Assembly (NCBI RefSeq): GCF_000197735.1
Contig: NC_014550.1
Coordinates: forward strand, 310,001 to 374,000
DNA: 64,000 bases
Source: Glutamicibacter arilaitensis Re117
Lineage (GTDB): Bacteria > Actinomycetota > Actinomycetes > Actinomycetales > Micrococcaceae
Direction: 5' to 3'
In this document: piece by piece, positions 55,165 through 62,276 of the stretch
Position numbering within the stretch: position 1 is the first letter of the stretch
Layout: each line of letters opens with the position of its first letter
Translations under genes and position numbers: made by a program
The notes under the pieces: generated by a model
Database searches by the model: none
Told to the model about the DNA's origin: nothing
What the model saw: only the letters and a program-made list of their open reading frames with translations

Positions 55165-57723
55165 TCAGTTGCCGAAGTAGCTCGGCACCTGCTCGCTGTG
55201 CGCAGGCGGAGTCGGCATTTCGGCCTTCTTCTGCACGCTCAGCTTGTTAGCGGCGTAGTCCACCAAAACGGTGTCGCCGGCAGCCAGCGAATCATCGATC
55301 AGCAGATCGGCGATGGCATCTTGCACCTTGCGCTGCACCAAACGGCGCAGCGGGCGGGCACCGAACTCGGGATCGTATCCTTCGCTGGCCAGGAACTGCA
55401 CGGCAGCGTCGCTGATTTCCAGCTGCAGTTCCTGATCATTCAACCGGGCCTCGGTTTCAGCGATGACCAATTTGACGATCTGGCTAATCTCGGACTGCGA
55501 GAGCTTGGAGAAGAGCAGTACCTCATCCAAACGGTTCAGGAACTCGGGACGCATGAACTCGCGTACCTTGCCCATGACCTTGGCGCGGACCTCGTGGGCC
55601 TCGCTGGTGGCGTTGGTGGAGGTGAAACCGAAGTTTCCGGCCTTATTCGCCAAATATTCGCCGCCGAGGTTGCTGGTCATCAGAATCAGCGTGTTGGAGA
55701 AGTCCACGGTGCGTCCGGCCGAGTCGGTCAACCGGCCGTCATCGAGTACCTGCAGCAGCACGTTGAAGACATCCGGGTGCGCCTTCTCGATTTCATCAAG
55801 CAGGATCACCGAGTACGGGTTGCGGCGAACCTTCTCGGTCAGCTGGCCGGGCTCATCGTGGCCGATGTATCCCGGAGGGGCACCGATCAGGCGTGCGACC
55901 GTGTGCTTTTCTCCGTATTCGCTCATGTCGACGCGAAGCAGCGAGTCGGCTGAACCGAACAGGTTGGTGGCCAGGGCCTTGGCCAGCTCGGTCTTGCCGA
56001 CACCGGTAGGACCCAGGAAGAGGAACGAGCCGATCGGGCGGCCGGCAGGGGACATGCCGGTGCGGTTGCGGCGTACCGCGCGGGCCACGGCAGACACCGC
56101 GTCCTTCTGGCCGATCACCGAGGCATGCAAGGACTCTTCCAGCGAAGCCAGCCGGGTCTTGTCATCTCCGGTGATCCGCGAGGTCGGGATGCCGGTGGAG
56201 CGGGAGATGACCTCGGAGATCTGGGCTTCATCCACCACGCGGGTGATTCCCGCGTCGCCGGCTTCCTCGGCGGCCGTGATCCGGGCAGTCAGCTCGGTGA
56301 TGTGGTCGCGCCAGGCGCTGGCATCCTCATAGCGTTCTTCCCCGATGGCCCGGGACTTCTCGCGTTCAGCATCCACCAGCTCCGCACGCAGGGACTGCAC
56401 GTCTTCGGTATCGCCAGCGGCAATCGAGCGCCGTGCACCAGCAATGTCGATCAGGTCGATCGCCTTGTCGGGCAGCTGACGGTCGGTGAGGTATCGGGCC
56501 GAGAGTGCCACCGCGGCCTTCAGAGCCGCAGGGGTGTACTGCACCTGGTGGTGGTCTTCGTAGGATTCACGCAGGCCTTCCAAGATGGCCAAGCTGACTT
56601 CCTCGGACGGTTCGGCAACGGTGACCTTGCCGAAGCGGCGGGCCAGAGCGCTGTCCTTCTCCACCTTGCGGAATTCATCCAGCGTGGTGGCGCCGATCAG
56701 GTGCAGCTCTCCACGAGCCAAGCGCGGCTTGAGGATGTTAGCGGCATCCATATTTCCGGATTCTCCGGAGCCGGCGCCAACCAGCAGGTGCATTTCGTCG
56801 ATGAACACCAGGACTTGGCCCTCTGCGTCTGCGATTTCCTCCAGCAGCCCGGTCAGGCGCTGTTCAAAGTCACCGCGGTAGCGCGTTCCGGCCAGCATGC
56901 CCGGGAGGTCGATGGAGATCAGGCGGGATCCGCGGATCTGTTCCGGGACCTGGTCATCCACGATGGCGCGGGCCAGGCCTTCGGCGATGGCTGTCTTGCC
57001 TACGCCGGCCTCGCCGATCAGTACCGGATTGTTCTTGGTGCGGCGGGCCAGGATTTCGACAACCTGGTCCAGCTCGTCGTCACGGCCGATGACCGGATCG
57101 ATCTGCCCATCAGCGGCAAGCGCGGTCAAATCAGTTCCGTAGCGTTCGAGCATGGAAACATCTGACTCCTCCGAGCCCTGTTCCTGCCCGCCATTTTGGG
57201 CCCGCTGAGCCTGCTCCATGGCAGCTTGCTGCAGGGACTGGCCGGTAATACCGTGTTGCGCGAGCAACTGGCTGACCGGCGACTCCGGGTTGAAGACAAA
57301 CGCAAGGAAGAGGTGATCCGGGTCGATATAGGTCGAGCCATAGTTTCGTGCCACTTGGTATGCGTCGAAGAGGCTGCGCTGGGCAGAAGAGGAAAGGCGG
57401 GTTGGCTTCTCTGCCTTTTCCTGGGACTTGGGCATGCGAGCGATGGCGTCTGCACCTAGAGCATCGATGTCCACGCCCATGGCACCGAGGTGTTCGCCGA
57501 TTGGTTCGGTGCGCAACAGTGCCATGAGTAGGTGCAGGGAATCAATCTCGTCATGGCCGTGCTCATGGGAGATTGCGGCCGCGGTGGCTACGGCTTCGTG
57601 GGTTCGAGCCGAAAGCAGGCGGGTAATGTCGATGGGACGTGCTGCCTGGGCCCGAGCAGAGAGGAACCGAGAGAGGAATTCCTCGAACGAGCCATCTGAC
57701 GGTGCGCCGAAAAATGCTGGCAA
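55165..57723 (-). CDS. ClpC-like HSP100 AAA+ ATPase
   Basis: An 852-residue Clp/HSP100 unfoldase. Two N-terminal Clp-N repeats, AAA-1 with Walker [11 protein letters not shown] and [14 protein letters not shown], a middle segment with a UVR-like motif ([14 protein letters not shown]), AAA-2 with [10 protein letters not shown] and a sensor-2 [10 protein letters not shown] ClpP-docking loop may be present: AGNFGFTST (FGF, where ClpC has VGF/LGF). So a ClpP partner is plausible, unlike ClpB. A HAIR-like box (57743-57763) lies 20 bp upstream of the start, indicating HspR heat-shock control. The start is TTG at 57723 with AAGGAGG five bases upstream; longer frames to 57768 ignore this site. Confidence 0.9.
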
Positions 57724-57742
57724 GTGAGCCTCCTTGTAGAAA

Positions 57743-57763
57743 CTTGAGCGGTCTATGCTCATG
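57743..57763 (-). promoter_or_regulatory. HAIR-like HspR operator upstream of clp
   Basis: CTTGAGC-N7-GCTCATG is close to the HspR consensus CTTGAGT-N7-ACTCAAG, with correct seven-base spacing. Position 20 bp upstream of the TTG start of an HSP100 gene is the expected context. Motif inference, not tested. Confidence 0.68.
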
Positions 57764-57852
57764 TTCAACGCATATGGCGCGCAATTATTCCCGCATCATG
57801 CGCGCTGAGGTGTGGAAGAGGCTGACTTCACAGGTGGGGTGGGATTCGATGG

Positions 57853-58527
57853 CTAGTCCCTTGGGATTTCAATAAGTCCCATGCGCGTAGCTGCGACCAG
57901 TGCTTGGACTCGGTCGCGAACATCCAGCTTTACGAAGATCTTCGCCATATGCGTTTTAACCGTTGTCTCTGAAATGGCCAACGTTTTGGAAATCTCCGGG
58001 TTATTAAGCCCCTTGGCTAGTAGCTTTAGAATCTCAAATTCACGATTAGTGATTCCCAAGTCGTATACGAGTTCCTGAATATCTCCAGAATTATCCCGAT
58101 ACGCTTCACGAACAGCAGAAACTAAATCGGAAGAGACTGACGGCGAAATGGCCGCGGTTCCCTGGTGGACGGCATGGATAGCACGAATAATTTCGTCTGG
58201 TTCAGAGTCCTTCACCAGATATCCACTGGCTCCCGCGGTTAATACCGGGACCAAATATTCATCAGAAGAAAAAGCAGTAATAGCAAGGACCGAAGGGCTG
58301 TCTTGTACGGATTTGATTATCTTGGTTGCACTAACTCCGTCCATGATTGGCATCTGTAAATCCATGAGAACAACGTCCACATGATTGTCCTTGCAATAGT
58401 CGACTGCGGCCTGGCCATTTTCTACAGAATTAACCATTGCAATTCCGTGAGCTGTTGCTAGGATTGTGCCCAACGCGTGCCGAATTAGAGGTTCATCATC
58501 GACAATAAGGACCTTTATTTTTTCCAT
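57853..58527 (-). CDS. NarL/LuxR-type response regulator
   Basis: A 224-residue response regulator. Receiver: VLIVDDEPLIR acidic pocket, phospho-accepting Asp56 in VVLMDLQMP, and conserved Lys in GYLVKDSEP. Output: LuxR-type HTH (TNREFEILKLLAKGLNNPEISKTLAISETTVKTHMAKIFVKLDVRDRVQALV). AAAGGA five bases before the ATG at 58527 supports the start. Codons in this stretch are visibly more A/T-rich than in neighbours, which could mean horizontal transfer. It is divergent from a secreted peptide gene and 320 bp from a HisKA_3 kinase that is the likely partner. Confidence 0.92.
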   Translation of the reverse strand: MEKIKVLIVDDEPLIRHALGTILATAHGIAMVNSVENGQAAVDYCKDNHVDVVLMDLQMPIMDGVSATKIIKSVQDSPSVLAITAFSSDEYLVPVLTAGASGYLVKDSEPDEIIRAIHAVHQGTAAISPSVSSDLVSAVREAYRDNSGDIQELVYDLGITNREFEILKLLAKGLNNPEISKTLAISETTVKTHMAKIFVKLDVRDRVQALVAATRMGLIEIPRD

Positions 58528-58613
58528 CTGATTCCTTTGTTTCGATGCCTTATAGGCCAACGATCGGCCCGCTCACCTGAAAGTATATAAGTTGATCTGA
58601 ACTGGGGTTTGTT

Positions 58614-58796
58614 ATGAAGGGTTTGAAAATGCTGGCAGTAGCCGCATTAGTACTGGCACCATTGACCGCTGTGGCAGCTCCAGCATCTGCTGCGACCTCA
58701 TCCGCTCAGAGCAGCGGCGCCGTGGCGACGCCGGCTGGTTTTGGATCTGCTTTCTCGGAATGGATCTGCAATCGCTATGGCGTCGGCTGCCCATAA
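58614..58796 (+). CDS. Small secreted two-cysteine peptide
   Basis: A 60-residue precursor. The first 26 residues are a classical Sec signal peptide (MKGLKMLAVAALVLAPLTAV, cut after ASA near 26). The mature part is about 34 residues: a Ser/Thr/Ala/Gly-rich stretch, then a C-terminal motif FSEWICNRYGVGCP with two cysteines (52 and 59) able to form a small ring. Nothing catalytic. GGGG six to seven bases before the ATG is a modest ribosome-binding site, and TATATA lies about 30 bp upstream. It lies between a divergent LuxR-type regulator and a same-strand kinase (48 bp away), so it may be a signalling peptide, bacteriocin-like product or kinase partner; identity unknown. Confidence 0.72.
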   Translation: MKGLKMLAVAALVLAPLTAVAAPASAATSSAQSSGAVATPAGFGSAFSEWICNRYGVGCP

Positions 58797-58843
58797 AGCA
58801 GTGTATTTGACTTGATCATCAGCGCCGGGGGATTATTCGGCAT

Positions 58844-60028
58844 ATGAATGGACGAGTGAATGGCACCCTGACCAAGCTCTTCGCTGGTCGGGGTGTCATT
58901 GTTTGGACCGGTATTACTGTTCTGGTTGCAGTCTCCAGTAGTGAGTTCGTGACCCTGTTGGAAGAAGGGTTCAGCGGTTCGTCCGACGTCTCGGTTCGAG
59001 GCGCGTTGCTGGGGTTGGGGCTCTGCGTGATCCTTGCGCTGGGCCTGCGATGGCCTGCAGTATCCATCGGATTGTTCGTGGCTGTTGCCTATTTCTTCCT
59101 CACCGATAGCTCCCTGTTTTTCTGGACTATCGTTTCGTTCATGATATTCTCGTCCCTGGCGGCGACGGCCAGGGCATTAAGTGTTAGGGCCTTGTTTCTG
59201 ACCTTGTCTGCAGCCTGGATGGTGCAATTCGGTATTCAGTCAGGAAAAGATGCGGTCTTGCTCGTGGCGCTTGCCCCATTGGCGGCAATGGCCTTTTTCC
59301 TCACGAGGAATATTTACTTGCTGCGCGAGAAGAATGCTGTTGCCGTGCATCAAATGCAAGCAGTCAGGGAGCAGACGCGCCTTGCGGTCGACCGGGAGCG
59401 CAAGAACATCGCACGGGACCTGCACGATATCGTCGCGCATGACATTACTGTTGTGGCCATGCAGTCGAAAGCTGCGAAATTCGCTAACGACGGCCAAAAG
59501 GCCCTTGAAGCCCTCGATGTCATCGCCAAGTTGAGTACCGAGACCTTGCATGACCTCCGCCTGATGCTCAATGTCCTTCGTGCTGACGGGACCATGGCGG
59601 ACTCCCTGACGCAGAATGTTGATAAACCAGCCGCCACGACTGTTTATGCACTGCAAGGGGCTGAACTGTTCGTCCAGCGTCTTAGAGATGCTAATTTCAA
59701 GGTGACCTCCGCCACGGACGAAAAAATTTCTGACTTGCCTCGTTCTGCGCAGACCGCGATTTATCGAGTCATGCAAGAAGGTACAACAAATGTGATAAAG
59801 CATGGTCTGACTGGTGGAACCTGCACCTTCAATCTCATAGTGAGCGGCTCGGAGGCAATTCTTGAAATTGCTAATCAGATGAGTAATTCAAGGAAGAAGT
59901 CCGGTGACCTTCCAAGTGGCGGCACGGGCCTGATTGGCATGGGCGACAGGATGAGTGCGTTTGGTGGAAAGTTTGCAACTAACGCCGAAGATGGGATTTG
60001 GAAGCTGCGGGCAAGCATCCCGCTCTAG
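58844..60028 (+). CDS. Membrane sensor histidine kinase (HisKA_3, NarL-partner type)
   Basis: A 394-residue kinase with four to six hydrophobic helices in residues 15-155, no large external domain, then HisKA_3 (ERKNIARDLHDIVAHDITVVAMQS, His194) and a HATPase_c domain: N-box RVMQEGTTNVIKHG, and GGTGLIGMGDR at 358-368. The usual DxGxG box is replaced by an IANQ segment, a variant seen in some actinobacterial kinases. The 48-bp gap after the peptide gene and the divergent regulator imply one signalling unit. With its membrane-embedded sensor it could detect the peptide or membrane stress; this is inference. Confidence 0.92.
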   Translation: MNGRVNGTLTKLFAGRGVIVWTGITVLVAVSSSEFVTLLEEGFSGSSDVSVRGALLGLGLCVILALGLRWPAVSIGLFVAVAYFFLTDSSLFFWTIVSFMIFSSLAATARALSVRALFLTLSAAWMVQFGIQSGKDAVLLVALAPLAAMAFFLTRNIYLLREKNAVAVHQMQAVREQTRLAVDRERKNIARDLHDIVAHDITVVAMQSKAAKFANDGQKALEALDVIAKLSTETLHDLRLMLNVLRADGTMADSLTQNVDKPAATTVYALQGAELFVQRLRDANFKVTSATDEKISDLPRSAQTAIYRVMQEGTTNVIKHGLTGGTCTFNLIVSGSEAILEIANQMSNSRKKSGDLPSGGTGLIGMGDRMSAFGGKFATNAEDGIWKLRASIPL

Positions 60029-60381
60029 CCCTTGCCCTCCTACTAAAGTATGATTTCGGATTTTCGCAGGACAGGATAAGTTAGACATGTATCGGTGAAG
60101 ACCGATCACCAAGGAAGGTACTTGGTGGTGTTTTGCGAGTGGCATCACGAAGGATCCCAAAGGTGATTAAAAGGTACGTTGCATTAGTGAGAACGGACTG
60201 ATCTTTCATCGGCGCTGTGCCCCCATCGCACGCCGTTGTCCGTCAGCAATGCAACGTACCTTTTATAACTTAACTTCCACTGACTCTACTGAGAGCTGTC
60301 TCGCGCCTGGGGTCGGAATGAGCTTGAATGGCGGGGCGTTGAGCCTAGAGAGAGAATTTCCCGTCTTGAAAGCGAGCGAGC
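60029..60381. other. 353-bp non-coding region rich in hairpins
   Basis: No gene is supported. Four stems follow each other: ATCGGT-GAAG-ACCGAT (60091-60106), CACCAAG-N7-CTTGGTG (60107-60127), TCAC/GTGA (60145-60148 with 60163-60166), and the large inverted repeat 60169-60264. Possible small RNA, 5' leader of the nitroreductase gene, or relic of a mobile unit. Confidence 0.6.
60169..60264. repeat. Long inverted repeat (17-bp arms) with inner stems
   Basis: AAAAGGTACGTTGCATT (60169-60185) is exactly complementary to AATGCAACGTACCTTTT (60248-60264). Inside, ACGGAC (60193-60198) matches GTCCGT (60238-60243), and CGGCG/CGCCG close an inner loop containing CCCCC. The folded form is one long imperfect hairpin of 96 nt. 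It could be a structured RNA, a terminator-like element or a MITE-like unit; no target duplication is obvious. Confidence 0.7.
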
Positions 60382-61002
60382 ATGAGCATCCAGGTAGAAA
60401 CCAATCACTATGAGTCGTTGACAATTCCTCAGGATGCTGCGGACCAGCTGTTCTTCGATGCTCGTAGTGCGAACTCATTCAGCGATGAACCGGTTTCTGA
60501 CGAAGTGCTCGATGCCATCTACGAAGCAACGAAGATGGGTCCGACGATGATGAATAACCAGCCGCTGCGCATCACCTGGATTAAGAGTGAGCAGGCGCGT
60601 CAGGCCATCGCAGGATCCATGGCCGGCCGCAACGCTGAGAAGGCTCTTTCGGCCCCGGCTCTGGCCGTTCTGTCTTTCGACACCGAATGGCATGAAGAGT
60701 TCGAGAATTTCTTCCCTCATGCACCGGAACGCAAGGAAATGTTCCAGGACCTCGCGATGCGCACCGCGGTTGGCAACAATAACGCGTGGCTACAGGCGGG
60801 GTACTTCATCATGGGTGTGCGTGCCGCCGGTCTGGCAGCTGGCCCGATGGGCGGCTTCGACAGCACCGTCGTTGACGCAGCGATTAATGCTGAGAACAAC
60901 CACAAATCATTCTTGATCGTGAATGTTGGCAAGCCAGGGGAGAACGCGTGGCATGATCGCCTGCCACGGCACGATGCATCTTTGGCCACACGCAGCGTCT
61001 AA
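60382..61002 (+). CDS. RutE-like nitroreductase (malonic semialdehyde reductase family)
   Basis: A 206-residue FMN nitroreductase-family protein of the RutE/HadB clade. Match points are LFFDARSANSFSDEPVSDEVLDAIYEATKMGPTMMNNQPLRI, LSAPALAVLSFDTEWHEEF, WLQAGYFIMGVRAAGLAAGPMGGFD and ending RLPRHD. RutE in E. coli reduces malonic semialdehyde in uracil catabolism; no other rut genes are here, so general aldehyde or nitro reduction is equally possible. Start ATG at 60382. It sits just after the hairpin-rich region, which may be its leader. Confidence 0.85.
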   Translation: MSIQVETNHYESLTIPQDAADQLFFDARSANSFSDEPVSDEVLDAIYEATKMGPTMMNNQPLRITWIKSEQARQAIAGSMAGRNAEKALSAPALAVLSFDTEWHEEFENFFPHAPERKEMFQDLAMRTAVGNNNAWLQAGYFIMGVRAAGLAAGPMGGFDSTVVDAAINAENNHKSFLIVNVGKPGENAWHDRLPRHDASLATRSV

Positions 61003-61011
61003 TCCATCAGC

Positions 61012-61064
61012 AAAAACGCCATGAGCGCGATAACTTTAATAGTTCTCGCGCTCATGGCGTTTTT
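61012..61064. terminator. Bidirectional terminator between rutE-like gene and 61071 gene
   Basis: AAAAACGCCATGAGCGCG (61012-61029) pairs with CGCGCTCATGGCGTTTTT (61047-61064). The arms give A- and T-tracts on the two ends, so it can act on both strands; it lies between convergent stop codons. Confidence 0.9.
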
Positions 61065-61070
61065 GAAGCG

Positions 61071-62276
61071 TTAAGCGTCGGCGTCGCTGTCTTGCTGGGA
61101 ATCGTTCAGGACGTGATCCGAAACCTTGGTCAGCGCACGCTCCAGCGAGGAGCGCAGTGCGACCGGGACGGTGATTTCTTCGTTGATCTCGACAAGGCCT
61201 TCGCGTTCAAAGACGCGTAGCAGCGATTCAACCTGAGGGACCACCTCTTCAAGACTGGCAATCAGGTGATGCTGTTCTGCAGGCAGATCATCCTCGCTAG
61301 GAACCTGCAGTGCAAACTCGGTACGTGGAGGAGTCGAAGATGCTGCATTGCTCAATACCCCGGCAACCATCTCGGCAATCTGTGCCTTGCCTGGCTTCTG
61401 AAGAGTATTAATCAGAATGTGCGAGTAGAGAACCTCCGCGATCAATTCCTTGACCAAGCGTGCTCCTTGGCCGCTGGAAGCCAGCAAGGCATCACTGAGC
61501 GACTCGGTTGGGGTCGCATTCGGTGCCTGGTAGCGCAGCATGGCCGTGCCAATCAGCGCATCCCAGTAAGCCGAGAGACGGGGGATATCTGCCAAGGAAG
61601 GAACGACCGTACCGTCTTCTGGCTCCCACTCAGACTCCTGTGGAACCTCCGCGGATTCATCTACCTTGACGAATAGTCCGAGTGCGCCGGCAGCGTCTTG
61701 CAACGTTGCGCCGGTCAGAACGCCAGCCGGGGTAGTTGGCTTTCCGTCGCCAACCCAGCTGATCAATTCGCGAGCGGCGAAAACGAATGGCATCGATTCC
61801 AAGATGCCATTGGCCTCTTCATCTTCGAGGTACGGCGCGACGATGGGTGAATCTCCGGCCATACGCGAGAGGAATTCGAAGGTCTGCTTGAAGTCATCTA
61901 CGCTGCCGCCGAAATTGGCGGTGGTCCCCAGGAAAGTCAAGTAATGCTTGAGGATCGCGGCGCTGGCTTCCGAAACCTCTTTACCCAGTGAAGTCAGGTG
62001 GCCAAGCTGTTCGCCCAAAATGCTGGGGTCCAAGGTTTTGACGTCAACGCTCTTGCGCAGCTGGGCATGTACCGTCAGCAAAGTAGTCAGTCCCTCAAGT
62101 GCTGCGCGGGTCTCGCTGGCTGCTTGTCCTTCTTCGTGGAAATGGCGGAAAAGCGAGGACTTGAAAGGCTGAAGAGCTTGGCGTACTTCGGATTCGAAGG
62201 GCACGTTACTGGCGCCTGAACGGCGGGCTGGGTGGCCCTGGGCTGGCTTCTTCTTGGCTGGTTTACGTGAGGCCAT
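61071..62276 (-). CDS. Uncharacterised 401-residue protein
   Basis: A 401-residue protein I cannot assign. The first 25 residues are basic and lysine/alanine-rich (MASRKPAKKKPAQGHPARRSG), then mostly alpha-helical, acidic sequence with no membrane helix or catalytic motif, ending DSQQDSDADA. The acidic tail and basic head would give a polar molecule. No known domain is visible to me. ATG at 62276 with an AAGGAA rather far upstream. It stands alone; neighbours are a reductase and an amino-acid dehydrogenase, without functional hints. Confidence 0.7.
   Translation of the reverse strand: MASRKPAKKKPAQGHPARRSGASNVPFESEVRQALQPFKSSLFRHFHEEGQAASETRAALEGLTTLLTVHAQLRKSVDVKTLDPSILGEQLGHLTSLGKEVSEASAAILKHYLTFLGTTANFGGSVDDFKQTFEFLSRMAGDSPIVAPYLEDEEANGILESMPFVFAARELISWVGDGKPTTPAGVLTGATLQDAAGALGLFVKVDESAEVPQESEWEPEDGTVVPSLADIPRLSAYWDALIGTAMLRYQAPNATPTESLSDALLASSGQGARLVKELIAEVLYSHILINTLQKPGKAQIAEMVAGVLSNAASSTPPRTEFALQVPSEDDLPAEQHHLIASLEEVVPQVESLLRVFEREGLVEINEEITVPVALRSSLERALTKVSDHVLNDSQQDSDADA

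Follow-up and report, generated by a model that had tools for sequence, protein, structure and literature searches.

A likely peptide-sensing two-component system of Glutamicibacter arilaitensis and the related kinase loci of actinobacteria

Can a small secreted peptide encoded between the genes for a response regulator and a histidine kinase be the signal of its neighbours in an actinobacterium? The question is raised by a locus of Glutamicibacter arilaitensis Re117 (genome size 3.9 Mb) that lies in a stretch of 64,000 nucleotides, positions 310,001-374,000 of NC_014550.1; the whole stretch was analysed, is referred to as the window and supplies the coordinates given below. In Firmicutes, the sensing of peptide pheromones by two-component systems is textbook knowledge. 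The comparative genomic analysis described here makes it likely that the three genes of this locus form one peptide-sensing, probably autoinducing two-component system.

The locus consists of a minus-strand gene (57853..58527) for a NarL/LuxR-type response regulator of 224 amino acids counted from the ATG, a plus-strand open reading frame (ORF; 58614-58796) for a peptide of 60 amino acids with the C-terminal sequence WICNRYGVGCP, and a plus-strand gene (58844..60028) for a DesK-type polytopic histidine kinase of 394 amino acids. This gene set had been recognized in the original prediction and is confirmed, with intergenic gaps of 86 bp between the regulator and peptide genes and 47 bp between the peptide and kinase genes in place of the 87 and 48 bp given there. 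In the regulator (REC and GerE domains), the Pfam profiles Response_reg (100.8 bits) and GerE (64.1 bits) both score above their cut-offs, and the best NCBIfam models, NarL and UvrY, score below theirs. The kinase matches HisKA_3 at 57.3 bits (cut-off 24); its ATPase part has no Pfam match at 0.001, despite the conservation, in the kinase alignment, of motifs that we take to be N- and G-box-like. The absence of an external sensor domain, also predicted originally, agrees with the hydropathy profile and the structure model. Judged by the domains of both proteins, the locus belongs to the HisKA_3 (HPK7)/NarL-LuxR kind of two-component systems.

The peptide itself matches no Pfam family at 0.001. 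By eye, its precursor begins with a Sec-type signal peptide of 26 codons (58614..58691, plus strand), in which lysines are followed by a hydrophobic stretch and by ASA at residues 24-26; the presumed cleavage after ASA would release a mature peptide of 34 residues (58692..58796 with the stop codon). One copy of the gene is found in each of 18 genomes of the genus (Glutamicibacter, by the names of the homologues). In the alignment of these 18 sequences, A21, A22, P23, A24 and A26 of the signal-peptide region are invariant, and the mature part combines a variable linker with a conserved end, the invariant positions being P40, A41, G42, W50, C52, Y55 and C59. The cysteines are spaced as C-X6-C throughout the genus, with 0 or 1 residue after the last one. 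For the eight pairs compared by the Nei-Gojobori method (NG86), nonsynonymous divergence (dN) is 0.015-0.216 and synonymous divergence (dS) 0.20-2.67, which indicates that the peptide gene is real and its codons are under purifying selection. The Re117 genome contains a single copy at a useful score; six further weak matches (E-values of 0.017-0.66, with one region recurring at 0.0085 and two matches containing stops) look like chance or signal-peptide similarity and were rejected as paralogues. A profile search of a large protein database, with 7990 candidates scored, retrieved 26 proteins with lengths of 55-89 residues at E<=1e-17 and a further three at E>1, and the named homologues are labelled Glutamicibacter or Arthrobacter. 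One close homologue, P0002, is annotated by one source as 'methionine-rich copper-binding protein CopC', a name that looks like a misannotation, given that the window peptide has no supporting Pfam family.

The strongest evidence for a functional connection is the stability of the arrangement. The order of divergent upstream regulator, peptide and downstream kinase is conserved in 18/18 genomes of the genus. Furthermore, a scan of 395 genomes of the family with the peptide profile gave matches at E<=0.01 in 66 genomes; the match reaches the second cysteine, and thus covers the core, in 35 of them (33 at E<=1e-6, G108 at 0.0037 and G197 at 0.0046), the other matches, which concern mainly the signal-peptide part and often lie inside long frames, being outside this count. 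In 35/35 genomes the core-covering match sits between the regulator and kinase genes. Homologues scattered without this pair, named in the original prediction as the finding that would speak against it, were sought, and there are none among the core-covering matches. The Re117 genome encodes nine HisKA_3 kinases, and only the kinase at 58844-60028 is accompanied by a signal-bearing peptide with a cysteine pair; one unrelated-looking ORF of 52 residues next to another of these kinases fits the loose pattern. As far as gene order can tell, the peptide is stably linked to the kinase/regulator pair, and the converse fails in one subclade of Nesterenkonia discussed below.

The regulator gene had also been noted as A/T-rich, which was taken as a hint of horizontal transfer. 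The composition stands, with a G+C content of 0.465 compared to 0.599 for the window. Recent transfer into Re117 does not follow from it and is not supported, since the G+C content of the regulator gene is low (0.47-0.58, always below 0.599) in all 16 relatives measured and the gene order is kept in all 18 genomes of the genus. In the other 17 genomes the regulator orthologues are 63-91% identical.

Beyond the genus, the kinase profile was used to scan named genomes, and the best 80 of 436 loci were inspected with a pattern, set beforehand, for a small ORF with a cysteine pair in front of the kinase gene. Among the loci listed, such an ORF and a divergent regulator are present in 13/13 of the Glutamicibacter type (L046-L058) and 10/10 of the Paeniglutamicibacter type (L059-L068), and also in at least six loci of Nesterenkonia, at least one of Miniimonas and at least one of Ornithinimicrobium; in the Nesterenkonia locus L088, a signal-bearing ORF of this kind is preceded by a regulator gene in the same direction. 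Peptides of other loci retain the design of the core, with examples including WVCRNLGALC, WTCRHFGIWC, WACKRLGLFC, FFCAAFPRSSSC and WTWLCQQLGVC, and those of Micrococcaceae have a signal-like N terminus with an AxA-like site. The module was also observed at L172 (G136:C1:318000-330000). In Ornithinimicrobium sp. INDO-MA30-4 (L090, 2156-2503), the peptide frame departs before its end from the very similar peptide of L091, as by a frameshift or a sequencing error.

In a kinase tree of 126 rows (a short search with SH-aLRT, the approximate likelihood ratio test of Shimodaira-Hasegawa type, as the only support measure; four rows were left out and several long branches flagged), all 61 rows labelled as having a peptide fall in one clade of 79 rows (SH-aLRT 99), compared to 0 among the 47 rows outside. 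These 61 rows comprise 50 with cysteine-pair ORFs and 11 with cysteine-free leaderless ORFs; the labels were assigned by the analyst, the cysteine-free ORFs were sought by eye inside the clade only, and four loci are represented twice (L077/L130, L138/L183, L060/L036 and L082/L129). The division was already the same, 54 versus 44, in an earlier tree with 98 rows. The fixed pattern applied to loci outside the clade produced two chance-looking ORFs (L112 and L115). A uniform scan for ORFs containing C-X4-8-C in the 375 bp surrounding the estimated start of each kinase gene detected them in 43/76 clade loci versus 2/44 loci outside, with shuffled sequences giving 8.8% and 5.5%, respectively; among the hits inside the clade, that of the Nesterenkonia locus L076 looks like chance. 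The scan left out 14 loci that have no kinase-start motif, including 5/9 of the Re117 kinases, and of the Re117 kinases that it covered 1/4 gave two chance-looking ORFs. In the sample examined, cysteine-pair peptide genes of the tryptophan/cysteine design are confined to one kinase clade.

Searches at higher taxonomic levels revealed other forms of the upstream ORF. An order-wide search (396 genomes) contributed loci of additional families, with peptide ends such as ...RLFCERWGLFCG, ...DLNCFFFKRC, ...DLACQVLGDFFEKC, ...ALCDLIPELCPPHLR and ...TLCQLYPQLCGR. In one genus of another family (f19 g59), the kinase is present in 14/149 genomes at E<=1e-50, with the regulator gene divergent in all 14. 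The clade members of this family carry short ORFs of about 12-30 residues that have no evident signal sequence and are recognized by position, ribosome site and conservation. At L183-L191 and L141, the last from the order-wide search (where the locus L183 appears again as L138), a leaderless cysteine-free ORF of 13-15 codons follows a strong ribosome site, as exemplified by MWYWLGQLIGIFK, MWDWLGRWLGIWK and MGIFYVFGKMIGIFR; versions with a cysteine pair, such as MMTVWTWLCQQLGVCSN and MYTICQWLGLCV, are found at L192, L193, L195 and L196, the starts being uncertain in L193 and L195. An excess of synonymous changes is clear in one pair of the short ORFs only (L186/L190, 3 to 0), most other pairs having more amino acid changes. 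A search for the kinase across the class (394 genomes, E<=1e-55) matched 7 genomes; L157-L159, the loci from this search that lie outside the order, have no cysteine-pair ORF and are positioned outside the kinase clade.

Taken together, these observations tip the balance slightly towards the view that the kinases of this clade come with a ligand gene of their own, placed just before the kinase gene, and that this ligand gene has been rebuilt repeatedly, resulting in an actinobacterial family of peptide-sensing systems with exchangeable ligands in several families of one order. The ligands would then include Sec-secreted tryptophan/cysteine-loop peptides, signal-anchored peptides with cysteines and, whether they contain cysteines or not, leaderless peptides some 12-30 residues long.

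How would such a system operate? Sec would export the precursor, which would be cleaved behind ASA, and the C-terminal segment W-x-C-x2-Y-G-x2-C would probably form an extracellular loop closed by a disulfide. Passing between cells, the peptide may then bind the membrane-embedded sensor of the neighbouring DesK-type kinase as its ligand, and the kinase would phosphorylate the divergently encoded NarL-type regulator. Acting on the divergent promoter region of 86 bp (58528..58613), which was aligned across the 18 genomes, the phosphorylated regulator could induce production of the system's own signal along with other targets. The kinase model, built with 26 sequences (predicted local distance difference test, pLDDT, 73.6; predicted template modelling score, pTM, 0.43), contains 5 or 6 membrane helices connected by very short loops, and both the model and the hydropathy profile place after them a long helix leading into the catalytic core. 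With loops this short, the ligand would be expected to act within the membrane part of the kinase or on the loops themselves. The closest solved kinase is DesK, both by sequence (1.2e-15) and by fold (3.3e-8), with the likeness in each case covering the catalytic part (positions 156-242 and 308-384 of the profile, neither stretch belonging to the membrane sensor). Sequence change is more rapid in the sensor half of the kinase than in its catalytic half (0.463 vs 0.295), which counts in favour of a sensed peptide.

The promoter region harbours a conserved block, GCTCACCTGAAAGTATATAAGTTG (58571..58594, plus strand), a candidate private site for the promoter or the regulator. With three mismatches allowed, it matches a single site, the peptide promoter, in 10/10 genomes of the genus, and the reversed control has 0 in all 10; a shorter 15-mer of the block with two mismatches occurs once in the Re117 genome, its reversed control twice. 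The promoters at L183-L191 were observed to share, just before the tiny ORF, the element TGAAGAATCGATTCGAGA with the perfect palindrome GAATCGATTC, a candidate regulator site. In 9/9 genomes of that family, the 18-mer containing this palindrome occurs free of mismatches at a single site, the peptide promoter, and 0-3 further sites per genome have 2-3 mismatches; the reversed control has 2 sites in all.

Several results weigh against the proposed system or its extension to the whole clade. A search for the regulon by promoter motif, with the block of the genus and in the nine genomes of the other family, found no targets. The peptide core shows no significant co-evolution with the kinase sensor beyond the shared tree (partial Mantel correlation of 0.16, reached in 395/5000 permutations); the linker (0.30, 57/5000) and the signal peptide (0.32, 160/5000) correlate better with the sensor, a result that does not single out the core, the region where contact would be expected. 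In the other family, ten separate loci have short ORFs free of cysteines, and the cysteine loop is therefore not universal. The tree counts are not independent, since 61/79 rows of the clade come from four genus-level groups. Furthermore, 12 Nesterenkonia rows (11 distinct loci, among them L076 with its chance-looking hit) of one subclade have the divergent pair and no convincing peptide gene. Loss of the peptide is the simplest reading of this subclade, and the pair can thus exist alone. Five more rows of the clade are without a peptide label (L133, L136, L140, L155 and L090, where the frame breaks off); at L194 no peptide ORF is recognizable by eye next to the divergent regulator and the kinase; and the kinase match of L137, whose upstream peptide is the one ending in ...TLCQLYPQLCGR, holds a stop. 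Two possible hiding places of the peptide in the peptide-less Nesterenkonia were considered. Their kinases begin with ...GGFWSCR..LNKW, resembling a peptide core fused to the kinase, and this resemblance was rejected as chance because the cysteine is lost in L083 and L085 and similar FW segments precede the first helix in other kinases of the clade; among the ORFs listed in their intergenic gaps, no leaderless peptide is conserved by eye.

Three other explanations of the locus have to be weighed against a sensed peptide. The peptide might be the output, a small antimicrobial or membrane-active product, with the two-component system answering another cue. Small secreted peptides beside HisKA_3/LuxR pairs can indeed be products, the lactococcin 972 model gives the window peptide a weak score (18.8 bits, cut-off 32.1), and some leaderless relatives, such as MWDWLGRWLGIWK, are rich in tryptophan and look amphipathic by eye. 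However, a Pfam scan of the 6 proteins within 55165-62273 revealed no protein family for export, peptide modification or known immunity functions, the protein encoded at 61071-62276 being without a family, and the peptide gene, in single copy at a useful score, is kept in 18/18 genomes of the genus and with one kinase clade across families, so an output role appears unlikely. The original prediction had proposed a peptide-sensing or a bacteriocin-type cassette; the former agrees with the 35/35 linkage, and a bacteriocin cluster is not supported, with a Clp ATPase, a nitroreductase and the protein without a family as the flanking products and the model score under the cut-off.

The peptide could instead be an accessory that sets the activity of the kinase within the same cell in response to the envelope, the redox or the membrane state, by means of its thiols. 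This idea draws on the two invariant cysteines, on the likeness of the kinase to DesK, by sequence and by fold (DesK senses membrane state), and on the Nesterenkonia peptides, whose N-terminal hydrophobic stretch and lack of an AxA site, judged by eye, fit retention in the membrane. It is opposed by the signal-like N terminus and AxA-like site of the Micrococcaceae forms, and the cysteine-free ORFs of the ten clade loci argue against a purely redox role; we regard an accessory role as improbable. That the small ORF has nothing to do with the kinase/regulator pair and occupies its position incidentally would fit the non-significant co-evolution of core and sensor and the Nesterenkonia subclade devoid of peptides; given the 35/35 linkage, the confinement to a single clade and the purifying selection, coincidence is hardly credible.

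If the peptide is a signal, does the system belong to a described type? ComQXPA of Bacillus likewise combines a peptide gene next to a polytopic HisKA_3-type kinase with a LuxR/NarL regulator, and its peptide has a tryptophan near the C terminus; however, no ComQ isoprenyl transferase is present among the 6 scanned proteins, the regulator gene is divergent here rather than downstream, and the peptide has paired cysteines and, by eye, a Sec-like signal at the N terminus, unlike the ComQXPA precursor with its prenylated tryptophan and no Sec signal. Agr also employs a short cysteine-containing peptide and a polytopic kinase with no external domain. It differs in having one thiolactone cysteine instead of two cysteines and HPK10/LytTR proteins instead of a HisKA_3 kinase and a GerE regulator, and no AgrB-type protease was detected among the 6 scanned proteins. 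DesK-DesR provides the best solved match, limited to the catalytic part of the kinase, and DesR is a NarL-type regulator as well, whereas DesK is not known to depend on a peptide gene. Lactococcin 972 (TIGR01653), the best-scoring bacteriocin model, describes a small secreted peptide with a signal peptide, with the score below the cut-off noted above. The leaderless short ORFs of the other family resemble the streptococcal leaderless pheromones, whose receptors are cytoplasmic Rgg-type proteins, while the presumed partner here is a membrane kinase. Thus, the system would work like ComX/ComP/ComA or Agr, yet appears to be without the defining features of both. As judged from gene order and the kinase model, it shares two features with peptide-pheromone two-component systems in general, namely the stable linkage and a polytopic kinase with no extracytoplasmic domain.

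The flanking genes follow the module only in part. Beyond the regulator gene, 13/13 Glutamicibacter-type loci have a Clp ATPase gene, which was not detected in the flanks of any of the 10 Paeniglutamicibacter-type loci. Beyond the kinase gene, a nitroreductase gene is present in 8/13 Glutamicibacter-type loci (with a fragment in one more) and 10/10 Paeniglutamicibacter-type loci, and the gene at 61071-62276 in 13/13 and 9/10, respectively. None of the three was matched in L069-L091, where 3-kb flanks, some of them shorter, were covered. Since no neighbour accompanies the module throughout, the targets of the regulator probably lie away from the locus. Between the kinase and nitroreductase genes, an inverted repeat of 23 nucleotides was observed (60168-60190/60243-60265; TAAAAGGTACGTTGC.../...GCAACGTACCTTTTA, 52 nucleotides apart), which has no Rfam match; with two mismatches allowed, its 17-mer has no site elsewhere in the genome. 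Equivalent repeats with both arms changed in sequence are present in 6/8 of the relatives' loci examined; the repeat is absent from L047, which has no nitroreductase match, and from L060, which has the nitroreductase gene and a different repeat. It is possibly an operator pair or an RNA hairpin for the nitroreductase gene.

Among the papers listed by searches of an open-access library, none describes, as far as titles and the beginnings of abstracts show, a peptide-pheromone two-component system for actinobacteria. The available part of PMC4748050 names no peptide together with its kinase, and that of PMC8467076, which concerns competence in Micrococcus luteus, deals with other two-component genes and contains nothing on the peptide locus. 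With relatives from several families of the order carrying a small, rapidly changing peptide gene at this position, the locus looks like an undescribed system of cell-to-cell signalling in actinobacteria. If this is true, the actinobacteria concerned would use peptides as a language whose code can be read, in which one clade of receptors with different ligands would offer natural specificity pairs, and peptides encoded in this manner would be a likely input for those HisKA_3/LuxR pairs whose signal is unknown.

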